Positions 7,160 through 9,505 of a stretch of DNA of 15,548 bases are shown one piece after another. Within the stretch, counting starts at the first letter, position 1. Every line of letters begins with the position of its first letter. The stretch covers positions 12,518 to 28,065 of the forward strand of contig PMZN01000193.1 in assembly GCA_003170375.1 (NCBI GenBank). The letters run 5' to 3'. Under the pieces are notes generated by a model. That model did not search any database. It saw nothing but the letters and a program-made list of their open reading frames with translations, and was not told the DNA's origin. Source of the DNA: Acidimicrobiaceae bacterium (GTDB lineage: Bacteria; Actinomycetota; Acidimicrobiia; Acidimicrobiales; Bog-793). The position numbers and the translations under genes are program-made.

Positions 7160-7193
7160 GGCGTCACCGGCGAGCGTCGGCTTAGGGCGTCAC
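7148..7193. terminator. Possible bidirectional terminator between leuD and leuA
   Basis: The convergent genes leuD and leuA end in the same ten bases: GTGACGCCCT at 7148-7157 on the plus strand, and again on the minus strand at 7193-7184. These give a 10-bp inverted repeat. Inside it, 7148-7155 can also pair with GGCGTCAC at 7160-7167, an 8-bp stem with the leuD stop codon in its 4-nt loop. No U-tract follows, so intrinsic termination is uncertain; mRNA 3'-end stabilisation is another possible role. Confidence 0.45.
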
Positions 7194-8744
7194 CCCGCTT
7201 TCGCGAACGGTAGCCGGGCCATCGCCGGCGATCCTGGCCTTGGCGCGGATCACGCGGTTGGTGGCCGTGACATACGCGCGAGCGGCCGCCTCTACCACGT
7301 CGGTCGAGAGCCCACGACCCGATGCGCGCACGCCGTCGGAGTCGAGCTGGATGACGACGTCCCCGAGCGCGTCGATGCCGCCGGTGACCGATGAGACGTT
7401 GAAATCCGTGAGCTTGGCGTCGATGCCCGTCGCCTGCTTGATCGCCTTGCAGGTCGCGTCGATCATCCCGTCGCCTTCGGCGGTCGCCTCGAACTTGTGA
7501 CCATCGCGGCTCACCACGACCCTGGCGCGCGGCATCCCGATGGTGCCGCCCTGGACGTCGAGCACGTCGAGGGCGAAGCCCTCCTCGAGCGCGGTTCCCA
7601 GCTCCTCGGCGACGATCGCCTCGAGGTCGGCATCGGTCAGCTGCACCTTGCGGTCGGCCAGCTCCTTGAAACGGGCGAACGAAGCGTTCAAGGCGTCGCC
7701 CTGGACCACGATGCCGAGCTTCGCAAGTGTGTCCGCGAACGCGTGGCGCCCCGTGTGCTTGCCGAGGATGATCTGGCCGCCCTCCTGGCCCACCGAGGCC
7801 GCATCGATGATCTCGTAGGTCGAGCGCTCCTTGAGCACACCGTGCTGGTGAATGCCCGACTCGTGGGCAAAGGCGTTCTTGCCCACGACCGCCTTGTTCC
7901 ACTGGACCTGGTAGCCCGTCAGGCGTGCCACCATCCTGCTCGTCCGGGCCAGCTCCTTGGTTCTCACGTTCGTCTCCAACCCAGGAAACTGATCCGGGCG
8001 GACCTTGAGCGCCATGACCACCTCCTCGAGCGCGGCGTTGCCGGCGCGCTCGCCGAGACCGTTCACGCAGACCTCGACCTGGCGGGCGCCTGCGCGCACC
8101 CCCGACAGGCTGTTGGCCACAGCGAGGCCGAGGTCGTTGTGGCAGTGGGTCGAGATCACGTAGTCGCCGGCAACCTGGCCGCGGACGTGCGCGACGAGAT
8201 CGCCGTAGTCCCAGGGGATCCCGTAGCCGACGGTGTCGGGAATGTTCAAAGTGGTGGCACCGGACTCGACTGCTGCAGCCAGCACCTCCAGCATGAACTC
8301 GAGCGGCGTGCGGGTCGCGTCCTGGGGTGAGAACTCGATATCGGTGGTGTGCTCACGAGCCCTCGCGACCCCCATACGCACCGCCTCGAGCACCTGATCC
8401 TCGCTCATCTTCAACATGTGCTCCATGTGGCTCGGGCTCGTCGAGATGAAGACGTGGATGCGGCTGCGCTCCGCGTCACGCAGCGCCTCGTAGCAGCGGT
8501 CCACGTCGGCCAGCTGGGTTCGCGAAAGCCCGGCGATAACCGGACCTTGGACAGTGCGGGCAATTAACTGGACGGCTTCGAACTCTCCCTGGCTCGAGAC
8601 AGGGAAGCCGGCCTCGATGTAGTCGACGCCGAGGCGCGCTAGTTGCTCGGCGATCTCGAGCTTCTCGCCGGGGTCGAGGGAGATCCCCGGCGACTGCTCG
8701 CCGTCCCGCAGTGTCGTGTCGAAGATGACCACTTTGTCGCTCAT
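7182..8744 (-). CDS. leuA: 2-isopropylmalate synthase
   Basis: LeuA condenses acetyl-CoA with 2-oxoisovalerate, the committed step of leucine synthesis, and is normally leucine-inhibited. The 520-residue protein begins with FDTTLRDGEQSPGISL (R13, D14), has EAGFP at 44-48, the metal-binding THCHNDLGLAVANS motif (H200, H202) and AFAHESGIHQHGVL at 291-304. The C-terminal regulatory domain runs from about 385 to 505 and is complete. This is the roughly 520-residue form close to the E. coli type, not the longer Mycobacterium form of about 600 residues. ATG 8744 is chosen because the family signature begins at residue 8 and GGAG lies 10 nt upstream (8755-8758). Expression is probably controlled by the leader-peptide attenuator between 8832 and 8971. 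The gene is convergent with leuD and stands alone in its unit. Confidence 0.96.
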   Translation of the reverse strand: MSDKVVIFDTTLRDGEQSPGISLDPGEKLEIAEQLARLGVDYIEAGFPVSSQGEFEAVQLIARTVQGPVIAGLSRTQLADVDRCYEALRDAERSRIHVFISTSPSHMEHMLKMSEDQVLEAVRMGVARAREHTTDIEFSPQDATRTPLEFMLEVLAAAVESGATTLNIPDTVGYGIPWDYGDLVAHVRGQVAGDYVISTHCHNDLGLAVANSLSGVRAGARQVEVCVNGLGERAGNAALEEVVMALKVRPDQFPGLETNVRTKELARTSRMVARLTGYQVQWNKAVVGKNAFAHESGIHQHGVLKERSTYEIIDAASVGQEGGQIILGKHTGRHAFADTLAKLGIVVQGDALNASFARFKELADRKVQLTDADLEAIVAEELGTALEEGFALDVLDVQGGTIGMPRARVVVSRDGHKFEATAEGDGMIDATCKAIKQATGIDAKLTDFNVSSVTGGIDALGDVVIQLDSDGVRASGRGLSTDVVEAAARAYVTATNRVIRAKARIAGDGPATVRESGVTP

Positions 8745-8831
8745 CGCTCGCTCGCTCCATTGTCGAGGCGCAACCGAGCCCTTCTTCCTGCCAGTCTTCG
8801 CGTAGTTGCCCGAAAACCGCACCCGGCCAAC

Positions 8832-8861
8832 AAAAAACCTCCTGGCCGAAGGCGCAGGAGG
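8832..8861 (-). terminator. Intrinsic terminator (attenuator) upstream of leuA
   Basis: On the minus strand CCTCCTG (8861-8855) pairs with CAGGAGG (8844-8838), with an inner GCC-TTC-GGC that strengthens the stem, followed directly by six T residues (8837-8832). This is a classic Rho-independent terminator. It lies 30 nt after the stop codon of a Leu-rich leader peptide and 87 nt before the leuA start, so it is positioned to stop transcription before leuA. Confidence 0.85.
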
Positions 8862-8865
8862 CGTT

Positions 8866-8889
8866 GGCGAGCGCGAAAGGGCGCTCGCC
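8866..8889 (-). promoter_or_regulatory. Leader hairpin following the leucine leader peptide
   Basis: GGCGAGCGC (8889-8881) and GCGCTCGCC (8874-8866) form a perfect 9-bp stem with a 6-nt loop on the minus-strand RNA, starting 1 nt after the leader stop codon. It has the place of the pause or anti-antiterminator stem of attenuators. Its 3' arm can alternatively pair with CGAGCG in the leader (8924-8919), and GCCAAC (8868-8863) can pair with GTTGGC just after the terminator (8831-8826). Which fold acts as antiterminator is not clear by eye. Confidence 0.65.
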
Positions 8890-8890
8890 G

Positions 8891-8932
8891 TCAGGTAAGG
8901 AGGAGGACCCGGATGAACCGCTCGTTCGTCAT
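8891..8932 (-). CDS. Leucine-rich leader peptide of the leuA attenuator
   Basis: A 13-codon reading frame, MTNERFIRVLLLT then TGA, on the minus strand. It contains Ile, Val and three consecutive Leu codons (CTC CTC CTT) placed 6-14 nt before the base of the following hairpin, the arrangement of leucine attenuators (leuL in enterobacteria). Ribosome stalling at these codons when charged tRNA-Leu is scarce would change folding downstream and allow readthrough into leuA. The ATG at 8932 has no well-spaced Shine-Dalgarno; GGTGA lies 1 nt before it and the predicted transcription start is only a few nucleotides upstream, so initiation may be nearly leaderless. Too short for routine gene callers. 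Confidence 0.75.
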   Translation of the reverse strand: MTNERFIRVLLLT

Positions 8933-8942
8933 GTCACCAGTG

Positions 8943-8971
8943 ATTGTGGTGGACAGGTCGTGATCCGTCAA
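8943..8971 (-). promoter_or_regulatory. leuA: Promoter of the leuA leader transcript
   Basis: Minus-strand TTGACG (8971-8966, five of six to consensus) is followed after exactly 17 nt by CACAAT (8948-8943, four of six). Transcription would begin near 8936, a few bases before the leader ATG at 8932. The box lies in the 28 nt just after the flavin-reductase stop codon, giving leuA its own promoter distinct from the serA operon. Confidence 0.65.
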
Positions 8972-8998: not shown

Positions 8999-9505
8999 CT
9001 ACTCGGAGCCTGCGGCCCGGTCACCGCCTTCGGCGACGCCGCGGTAGCTGCTGCGATGGTGGAGAAGAGGGGTATGGCCTGTCTCGACGCCCATCTCGCG
9101 CACCCTGCCGAGCACGAGCAAGTGGTCACCGGTCTCGACAACCCGTTCGATGTCGCAGTCGACGAAGGCCACAGCACCCACCAGCACCGGGTTCCCCGAT
9201 GGTGCCGGATGCCACTCGACGCCGTCGAACTTGTCGGCCTCGCTCACAGCGAAGCGCGACGAGATCTCGGCCTGGTCGTGGCCGAGCACGCTGACGCAGA
9301 ACGACCCCGAGGTGTCGATGGGCGGCCAGCTCTTCGACGTCGTAGCGACGAAGAACCCAACGAGCGGGGGGTCGAGCGACACCGGGACGAAGGTCCCCAC
9401 CGACAACCCCTTCGGGCGGCCGTCGACAACCCCGGCGACGACCGCGACGCTCGTCGGAACATGCGCCATCACCTGGCGGAAGTGTTCCGCGCTGAGGTCG
9501 GGCAC
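8999..9505 (-). CDS. Flavin reductase-like, FMN-binding split-barrel protein
   Basis: 168 residues from GTG 9505. The N-terminus FRQVMAHVPTSVAVVAG (9-25) and GLSVGTFVPVSLDPPLVGFFV (about 33-53) match the flavin reductase-like domain, where the SxDPP segment and nearby Thr/Ser hold FMN. FCVSVLGHDQAEISSRFA and KFDGVEWHPAPSGNPVLVGAVAFVDCDIE with a following HLLVLGRV segment complete the barrel. Such proteins reduce FMN/FAD with NAD(P)H, often for a partner monooxygenase, but none is nearby, so the partner and substrate are unknown. The GTG start keeps the conserved N-terminal helix; an ATG at 9469 would lose it. serA ends 5 nt upstream, so it is co-transcribed with the aminotransferase and serA. 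The leuA promoter begins 28 nt after its stop. Confidence 0.82.
   Translation of the reverse strand: MPDLSAEHFRQVMAHVPTSVAVVAGVVDGRPKGLSVGTFVPVSLDPPLVGFFVATTSKSWPPIDTSGSFCVSVLGHDQAEISSRFAVSEADKFDGVEWHPAPSGNPVLVGAVAFVDCDIERVVETGDHLLVLGRVREMGVETGHTPLLHHRSSYRGVAEGGDRAAGSE

Follow-up and report, generated by a model that had tools for sequence, protein, structure and literature searches.

A predicted leucine leader-peptide attenuator family before leuA in Acidimicrobiia, apparently without a competing hairpin

The leader region of leuA

The window, a stretch of 15,548 nucleotides from an Acidimicrobiaceae bacterium, carries leuA (2-isopropylmalate synthase) on its minus strand. The gene starts at 8744 and matches the NCBIfam models TIGR00973 (leuA_bact; 647 bits, cut-off 598.7) and NF002086 (698 bits, cut-off 532). 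A flavin reductase-like gene (8999-9505, minus strand), whose top NCBIfam match, HsaB, falls under its cut-off, sits between serA and leuA. The original prediction for the DNA directly before leuA comprised a promoter, a start codon, a leader peptide, a 9-bp hairpin and a six-U terminator, and all of these parts were found at 8971-8832 of the minus strand (Table 1). The hairpin (hairpin 1) was borne out in its length and in its start 1 nt past the stop codon. The terminator with its six U is also present, although its stem carries a one-base bulge. The unpaired base (CTG-N-GCC, window position 8854, in the terminator 5' arm) is C, T or A and, by eye, recurs in most of the 68 leuA-leader folds described below.

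A promoter scan returned this single site, with shuffles averaging 0.0. Since the start codon lies 10 nt past the -10 box, the leader ORF, which ends LLLT-stop, is probably leaderless or nearly so, with a 5' UTR of ~0-5 nt assuming the usual spacer. Folding of 8938-8820 gave a z of -2.4, with 3 of 200 shuffles equally stable; taken alone, this signal is modest.

Table 1. Features of the leuA leader region in the window
Feature	Position	Strand	Basis
Sigma-70-type promoter, TTGACG-N17-CACAAT	8943..8971	-	promoter scan, 9/12 consensus bases
Promoter boxes	TTGACG 8971-8966; CACAAT 8948-8943	-	sequence
Leader ORF, MTNERFIRVLLLT-stop, 13 residues	8891..8932	-	sequence
Start and stop of leader ORF	ATG 8932; TGA 8893-8891	-	sequence
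Control codons, CTC CTC CTT (Leu-Leu-Leu)	8897..8905	-	codon conservation in leuA leaders
Hairpin 1, GGCGAGCGC / GCGCTCGCC, 9 bp, 6-nt loop	8866..8889	-	fold and covariation
Intrinsic terminator, GCCTCCTG-C-GCC-TTC-GGCCAGGAGGT, one bulged base, six U	8832..8862	-	fold and covariation
Terminator stem; T run of six	8862-8837; 8837-8832	-	
leuA, 2-isopropylmalate synthase, presumed regulated gene	7182..8744	-	NCBIfam

Conservation, covariation and spread of the layout

The 79 loci searched carry relatives of leuA, and their titles mark most of them as metagenome-assembled Acidimicrobiia or Actinobacteria. The search pattern called for three Leu codons, no more than three further codons before a stop and, downstream, a GGAGG-like arm with a T run; hairpin 1 was not part of it. 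The layout was found in 67 of the 79 (loci L080-L109 entered no count). The 12 without it include two with upstream DNA of only 133 and 1 nt (L040 and L079), seven in which leuA seemingly lies behind another gene, ilvC-like by eye (L045, L060, L061, L070, L072, L074, L078), one with leuA seemingly behind a serA-like gene (L023) and two labelled Sedimentisphaerales (L066, L069).

Together with the window, these leaders form a set of 68 elements. Two separate hairpins appeared in 68/68 folds, with hairpin 1 starting 0 nt (34 elements), 1 nt (32) or 2 nt (2) after the stop and ending 0-6 nt before the terminator; the stop-to-terminator distance was 22-32 nt (mean 27.3). Exactly one codon separates the Leu run from the stop in every element, and the final Leu codon is CTT in 64 and CTC in 4, CTT making up 29 of the 352 Leu codons in ten window genes. 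A TTGA followed by C, T or A lies 30-48 nt 5' of an in-frame start in 59 of the 68, and at 35-40 nt in 58 of these, the exception being L043 at 32 nt; L011 has no DNA at the promoter position. Such conservation is strong evidence against a chance origin of the layout.

The stems were aligned for 67 of the 68 elements, leaving out L058, whose stem sequences differ. Of 1252 stem cells, 97.4% were paired, and 14 of the 19 pairs showed changes on both sides (8 of 9 aligned pairs in hairpin 1 and 6 of 10 in the terminator). None of 500 shuffles reached the observed pairing or double-change values, and pairing fell to 38-47% when the partner was shifted by one to three columns. The original prediction had proposed an alignment of relatives as a check, and the kept Leu codons and the compensatory double changes answer it favourably. 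In a further swap test, the pairing energy of two segments within an element was compared with that of segments exchanged between species. The terminator arms coevolved (z -13.4, 68 elements), and in an enlarged set of 119 distinct elements (the 68 plus 51 new, six duplicates dropped) z was -29.3 for the hairpin 1 arms and -20.1 for the terminator arms; the 51 came from a model that includes hairpin 1, and its position in them is not independent evidence. Comparative sequence analysis thus shows both hairpins to be conserved and covarying, each within itself.

An RNA model (R1) built from the 67-element alignment matched, at E <=0.01, 209 of 395 genomes of the window's own class (165 of 267 of good quality) and 128 of the 184 genera of the class. 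In its own genome it found this site alone, even at E 10. Of 296 genomes drawn from the phylum, 40 were matched, 21 of them from the same class. On reading the 19 outside it, 14 were judged to keep the layout, in front of a branched-chain gene or leuS; G515 and G712 have a variant form upstream of ilvB, and the matches in G588, G666 and G684 were taken for plain terminators. Of 20 stretches with weak R1 matches, 18 were read; four (L170, L171, L172, L185) resemble plain terminators. Two candidates before ilvB (L173, L174), with branched-chain codons and a terminator, have an ORF that enters the first hairpin and were set aside as an uncounted variant. A search of Rfam (release 15, 4227 families) gave no match at the gathering cut-off for the window or for 12 related loci; the best sub-threshold match in the region had an E-value of 0.004 (21.7 bits, cut-off 49.5).

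The class and phylum model searches supplied 57 loci, which are best matches rather than all matches. Downstream of these lie a window-type leuA in 23, a leuA of another type in 26, leuS in 4 and ilvB in 4; L120 was assigned a window-type leuA by its place beside a leuA match, and leuS and ilvB were assigned by resemblance, with L157 called leuS from a short stretch matching L181. NCBIfam, run on five of the 57 loci and the window, identified L111 as NF002991/TIGR00970, L153 as leuS_bact and L159 and L161 as acetolactate synthase, and scored the fragment L148 at 545.8 bits for leuS_bact (cut-off 548.4). As the two leuA types are 26-31% identical, one leader type, judged from these assignments, serves two forms of one enzyme that are only distantly related. 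One genome has two Leu leaders, one per leuA type (L145 and L182; G172:C1:43339 and 1621054). The spacing is looser in this wider set: the codon directly 5' of the stop is itself Leu in L138, L149, L155 and L156, and three codons separate the Leu run from the stop in L164.

The control codons vary with the gene, being Leu for leuA and leuS and Val, Leu and Ile for ilvB. Upstream of the ilvB of relatives the layout was found in 22 of 28 scanned loci (30 in all; L204 and L214 were not placed by start motif), with leaders ending, for example, LVVIT-stop. Because a generic scan for a stop, two hairpins and a T run was unspecific (8 matches in five shuffled windows, 0 in 20 shuffled ilvB upstream regions), an ilvB element entered the count only when L, I or V made up at least three of the five residues before the stop; L194 was scored as missing under this rule despite a match ending RRVLH-stop. 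In the ilvB leaders, hairpin 1 begins 0-1 nt past the stop, the stop-to-terminator distance is 26-33 nt, and GTA accounts for 25 of the 39 Val codons among the last five codons.

Some loci carry other genes. In a single case, an Ile-rich leader (IAIIIIS-stop; L183, G132:C18:4760-4826) precedes a citramalate synthase-like gene; leuA type 2 of that genome has a Leu leader (L151). Among the citramalate synthase genes scanned at 29 of 31 loci (L218 and L245 were not located), the 28 besides L183 had no element. At L175 (G481:C56:15489-15563), a Leu-Val-Val-Ile-stop, a hairpin and a terminator stand before an isochorismatase-type hydrolase-like gene, not a known branched-chain gene. Hairpin pairs also follow short ORFs before a leuB-like gene (MSSFQVAIG-stop; L169, G463:C75:44955-45017) and before an aminotransferase-like gene (L168, G491:C78:724-786), the candidate control residues of the latter being ambiguous.

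Search for a competing hairpin

Textbook attenuation rests on mutually exclusive hairpins. The weak antiterminator candidates named in the original prediction, CGAGCG/CGCTCG and GCCAAC/GTTGGC, are visible by eye in L001-L003 and broken in L004; they appear limited to the genus and were rejected as antiterminators. A screen took in stems that span 4 or more columns and can form in 75% or more of the rows; hairpin 1 and the terminator stood out with 8 bp each and all others had 4 bp. These include GCGC:GYGC (86%), GGCG:UGCC (86%) and ACCU:AGGU, which joins the codon before the stop to the 3' end of the terminator and is formable in 91% of rows. The GCGC:GYGC match would join the hairpin 1 3' arm to the terminator 5' arm and can form in 86-88% of cells, but it shows no covariation and 415 of 500 shuffles pair as highly.

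The swap test on the 119 elements gave no support for pairing with the terminator 5' or 3' arm by the 3' side of hairpin 1 (z +2.7 and 0.0, respectively), its loop (-0.1 and -0.4), its 5' arm (+3.5 and -0.2) or the Leu codons (+1.8 and +1.0). An alternative pairing of the Leu codons with the hairpin 1 3' arm was dropped on the same test (119 elements), as was one of the 45 nt 5' of the Leu run with either hairpin (68 elements); the row pairing the loops of hairpin 1 and the terminator was disregarded as an artefact of no-duplex energies. The native 2:3 pairing was weaker than the swapped in 60/60 swaps of the 119 elements and in 200/200 swaps of ilvB leaders. Likewise, 20 distinct ilvB leaders showed no coevolution between the hairpins in this test, with one weak negative value (codons with the terminator 3' arm, z -2.0, 4 of 200 swaps). 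From these comparisons, the arms of one hairpin do not seem to match the other hairpin and, if anything, avoid it. Covariation and swap tests are blind to an interaction between invariant bases, and the positive control, on Escherichia coli leaders, covers the folding test below, with one leader each.

We also folded the leaders with the RNA under a ribosome masked, on the assumption that it covers 13 nt counted from the A-site codon's first base; RNA polymerase and kinetics do not enter the model. This check, too, had been proposed in the original prediction. Over the 119 elements, the mean fraction of hairpin 1 pairs formed was 0.98, 0.91 and 0.57 with the A site at Leu-3, Leu-2 and Leu-1, 0.13 at X and 0.00 at the stop. 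The terminator mean stayed at 0.94-0.97 at all masked positions (single elements down to 0.00), and no antiterminator appeared. In this folding model, hairpin 1 is thereby shown to be the part that responds to the position of the ribosome.

The engagement of the terminator 5' arm with upstream RNA before the 3' arm is made was 0.04, 0.06, 0.18, 0.35 and 0.36 from Leu-3 to the stop (119 elements), and 0.02, 0.05, 0.26, 0.32 and 0.34 at the same positions in the ilvB set of 22. The corresponding values in E. coli K-12, with the ribosome on a control codon or at the stop, were 0.90/0.00 for thr, 0.62/0.00 for trp, 0.84/0.00 for phe, 0.67/0.01 for leu, 0.77/0.01 for ilv and 0.69/0.68 for his; five of the six controls showed textbook behaviour, whilst hisL gave no contrast between codon and stop. 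As modelled, the terminator 5' arm of the leucine leaders is free on the control codons, the reverse of the five E. coli controls, and the layout is one that fails this test for classical attenuation. The part of the original prediction that likened its working to that of enterobacterial leu operons is therefore not upheld: covariation, swap tests and ribosome masking produced no antiterminator, and the terminator 5' arm responds to the ribosome in the opposite sense to that of E. coli thr, leu, trp, phe and ilv. Within the reach of these tests, the leucine leader family apparently has no competing hairpin.

Proposed mechanism, alternatives and known systems

A short ORF with codons for the pathway product is present by sequence, and an intrinsic terminator between that ORF and the gene is present by fold and covariation; a competing antiterminator that forms with the ribosome on the control codons was not found. 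The central claim of the original prediction, a leucine leader-peptide attenuator before leuA, nevertheless stands: Leu codons, stop position, both stems and promoter-start spacing are conserved, and the control codons follow the gene. On this comparative evidence, leuA is very probably controlled by leucine-responsive, ribosome-mediated transcription attenuation.

How the position of the ribosome would reach the terminator is a more tentative matter. Our preferred reading, close to an even call, is that hairpin 1, folded with the ribosome held on the Leu codons and melted once it has reached the stop, may itself be the ON signal. With leucine plentiful, the ribosome would get to the stop and hold hairpin 1 open, the terminator would close and leuA would be off. 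With leucine scarce, the ribosome would stall on the Leu codons, hairpin 1 would fold against the base of the terminator and the polymerase would read through into leuA. Hairpin 1 would thus take the role of an antiterminator without pairing to the terminator. The reasoning is that leuA should be on when leucine is short, and folded hairpin 1 should therefore favour readthrough. Against it, only 57% of hairpin 1 is paired on average when the conserved CTT (Leu-1) occupies the A site, and by masking alone folded hairpin 1 keeps the terminator 5' arm free, which would itself favour termination.

One physical step that would serve this reading, and which we regard as rather doubtful, is steric: a duplex 0-6 nt from the terminator base may get in the way of the final terminator pairs as they close at the RNA exit channel. 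It draws support from a report, in the available text of PMC4824070, that closure of the last 2-3 terminator pairs is essential and that in E. coli a ribosome close upstream represses termination, an effect gone beyond ~27 nt from the stop; the mean distance here is 27.3 nt. Counter to it, in E. coli trp, phe, ilv and his, too, the fold of the free RNA has a helix ending 0-3 nt before the terminator, and hairpin clusters are reported at termination sites in the available text of PMC8355165.

Somewhat unlikely, in our judgement, is a classical attenuator with a short antiterminator of conserved bases. Here the ribosome stalled on the last Leu codon would melt the base of hairpin 1 and, until transcription has yielded the terminator 3' arm, the freed 3' arm of hairpin 1 would pair for a short time with the 5' arm of the terminator (GCGC:GYGC). 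The wide occurrence of this match and the roughly half-melted hairpin 1 at Leu-1 favour such a switch, as does a mutation study of Corynebacterium glutamicum ilvBNC in which, according to the available text, terminator and antiterminator overlap by a GCC trinucleotide only (PMC11857589). The absence of covariation in GCGC:GYGC argues against it, as do the 2:3 pairing, below the swapped in every swap of both sets, and the engagement of the terminator 5' arm, which at 0.04-0.18 on the Leu codons and 0.36 at the stop runs opposite to the controls.

We consider it distinctly unlikely that hairpin 1 acts as a pause hairpin and spacer, with leucine control exerted through the closeness of ribosome and polymerase and no RNA switch. 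On this view hairpin 1 would let the ribosome catch up with the polymerase and would hold the stop far enough from the terminator. Hairpin 1 does begin directly after the stop, and the mean stop-to-terminator distance is near the ~27-nt E. coli threshold (PMC4824070, available text). Under simple coupling, however, a close ribosome means less termination, and starvation would then lower leuA expression; the sequence and pairing of hairpin 1 also seem conserved beyond the needs of a spacer.

The structure could instead be the binding site of a regulatory protein or a small molecule, an idea put forward for the LEU element of other actinobacteria, and the Leu run would then be secondary. The sequences of hairpin 1 and the terminator are conserved beyond pairing, and mutations in the Streptomyces coelicolor leuA leader are said, in the accessible part of PMC1262725, not to fit classical attenuation. 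This explanation is nonetheless improbable, given control codons that switch with the gene whilst the layout stays constant, a hairpin 1 sequence that is GGCGAGC in leuA leaders and CGCACG in most ilvB leaders, and variable hairpin 1 loops. A constitutive terminator of the upstream gene beside a chance, unregulated ORF is scarcely credible: the flavin reductase-like gene does end at 8999 on the same strand, but a promoter-like site lies between it and the terminator, the Leu codons, stop-hairpin 1 register and promoter spacing are conserved, and the model recurs across most genera of the class.

Several known systems share features with these leaders and differ from them in others. E. coli leuL, thrL, trpL, pheL, ilvL and hisL share the leader ORF with control codons, the hairpin, the U-tailed terminator and the biosynthesis gene; here, in contrast, no antiterminator was found, the terminator 5' arm is free on the control codons in the folds, the ORF is probably near-leaderless and the stop lies immediately before hairpin 1. 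The original prediction also invoked attenuation predicted for actinobacterial leuA, a likeness that is not apt as far as the available text of the published account goes (Seliverstov et al. 2005, PMC1262725). The LEU element described there likewise has an upstream ORF with a Leu run before actinobacterial leuA, but it consists of a base stem between the Leu codons and the leuA SD box and a pseudoknot, and that text describes no terminator for it; the present leaders differ in layout, with two separate hairpins of which the second is the terminator.

The ilvB-II motif and C. glutamicum ilvBNC also have two stems, a U tract after the second and a uORF rich in branched-chain residues (PMC10272879, PMC11857589); the control codons given for ilvBNC are CUU and GUA, as in the leaders here (PMC11857589). 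The P1 of ilvB-II overlaps the uORF, and a region of the P1 loop forms the antiterminator with the right shoulder of P2 (PMC10272879), whereas here hairpin 1 lies past the stop and its loop shows no match to the terminator 3' arm in the swap test. In Mycobacterium tuberculosis ilvB1, whose uORF codons are LVVI, readthrough depends on a structure that is hidden by a ribosome at the stop, as we suggest for hairpin 1; unlike here, the masked structure is described as an antiterminator exclusive with the terminator (PMC13236596). These comparisons follow the accessible parts of the three papers.

Among the titles and abstract openings listed from the literature searched, whose coverage leaves out most subscription journals, none describes the Acidimicrobiia leucine leader family, and no direct precedent for antiterminator-less leader attenuation was found. 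With a large conserved family in which the ribosome-sensing half is kept and the competing hairpin seems to be missing, other routes from ribosome position to termination become testable. In its boldest form, which we consider somewhat unlikely, the proposal would amount to a second basic way of letting the position of the ribosome decide on termination, one that serves branched-chain amino-acid genes in much of an actinobacterial class and beyond. For actinobacteria that have been little studied, R1 offers a model with which to annotate leucine leaders and some ilv leaders.

Directly 5' of the leuA ATG, GGAGCGAGCGAGCG (window 8742-8758, minus strand) is complementary to the 3' arm of hairpin 1 (CGCTCGC). 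The match is present in L001 and L003 and shorter in L002, and a link between hairpin 1 and leuA translation at the genus level is possible.
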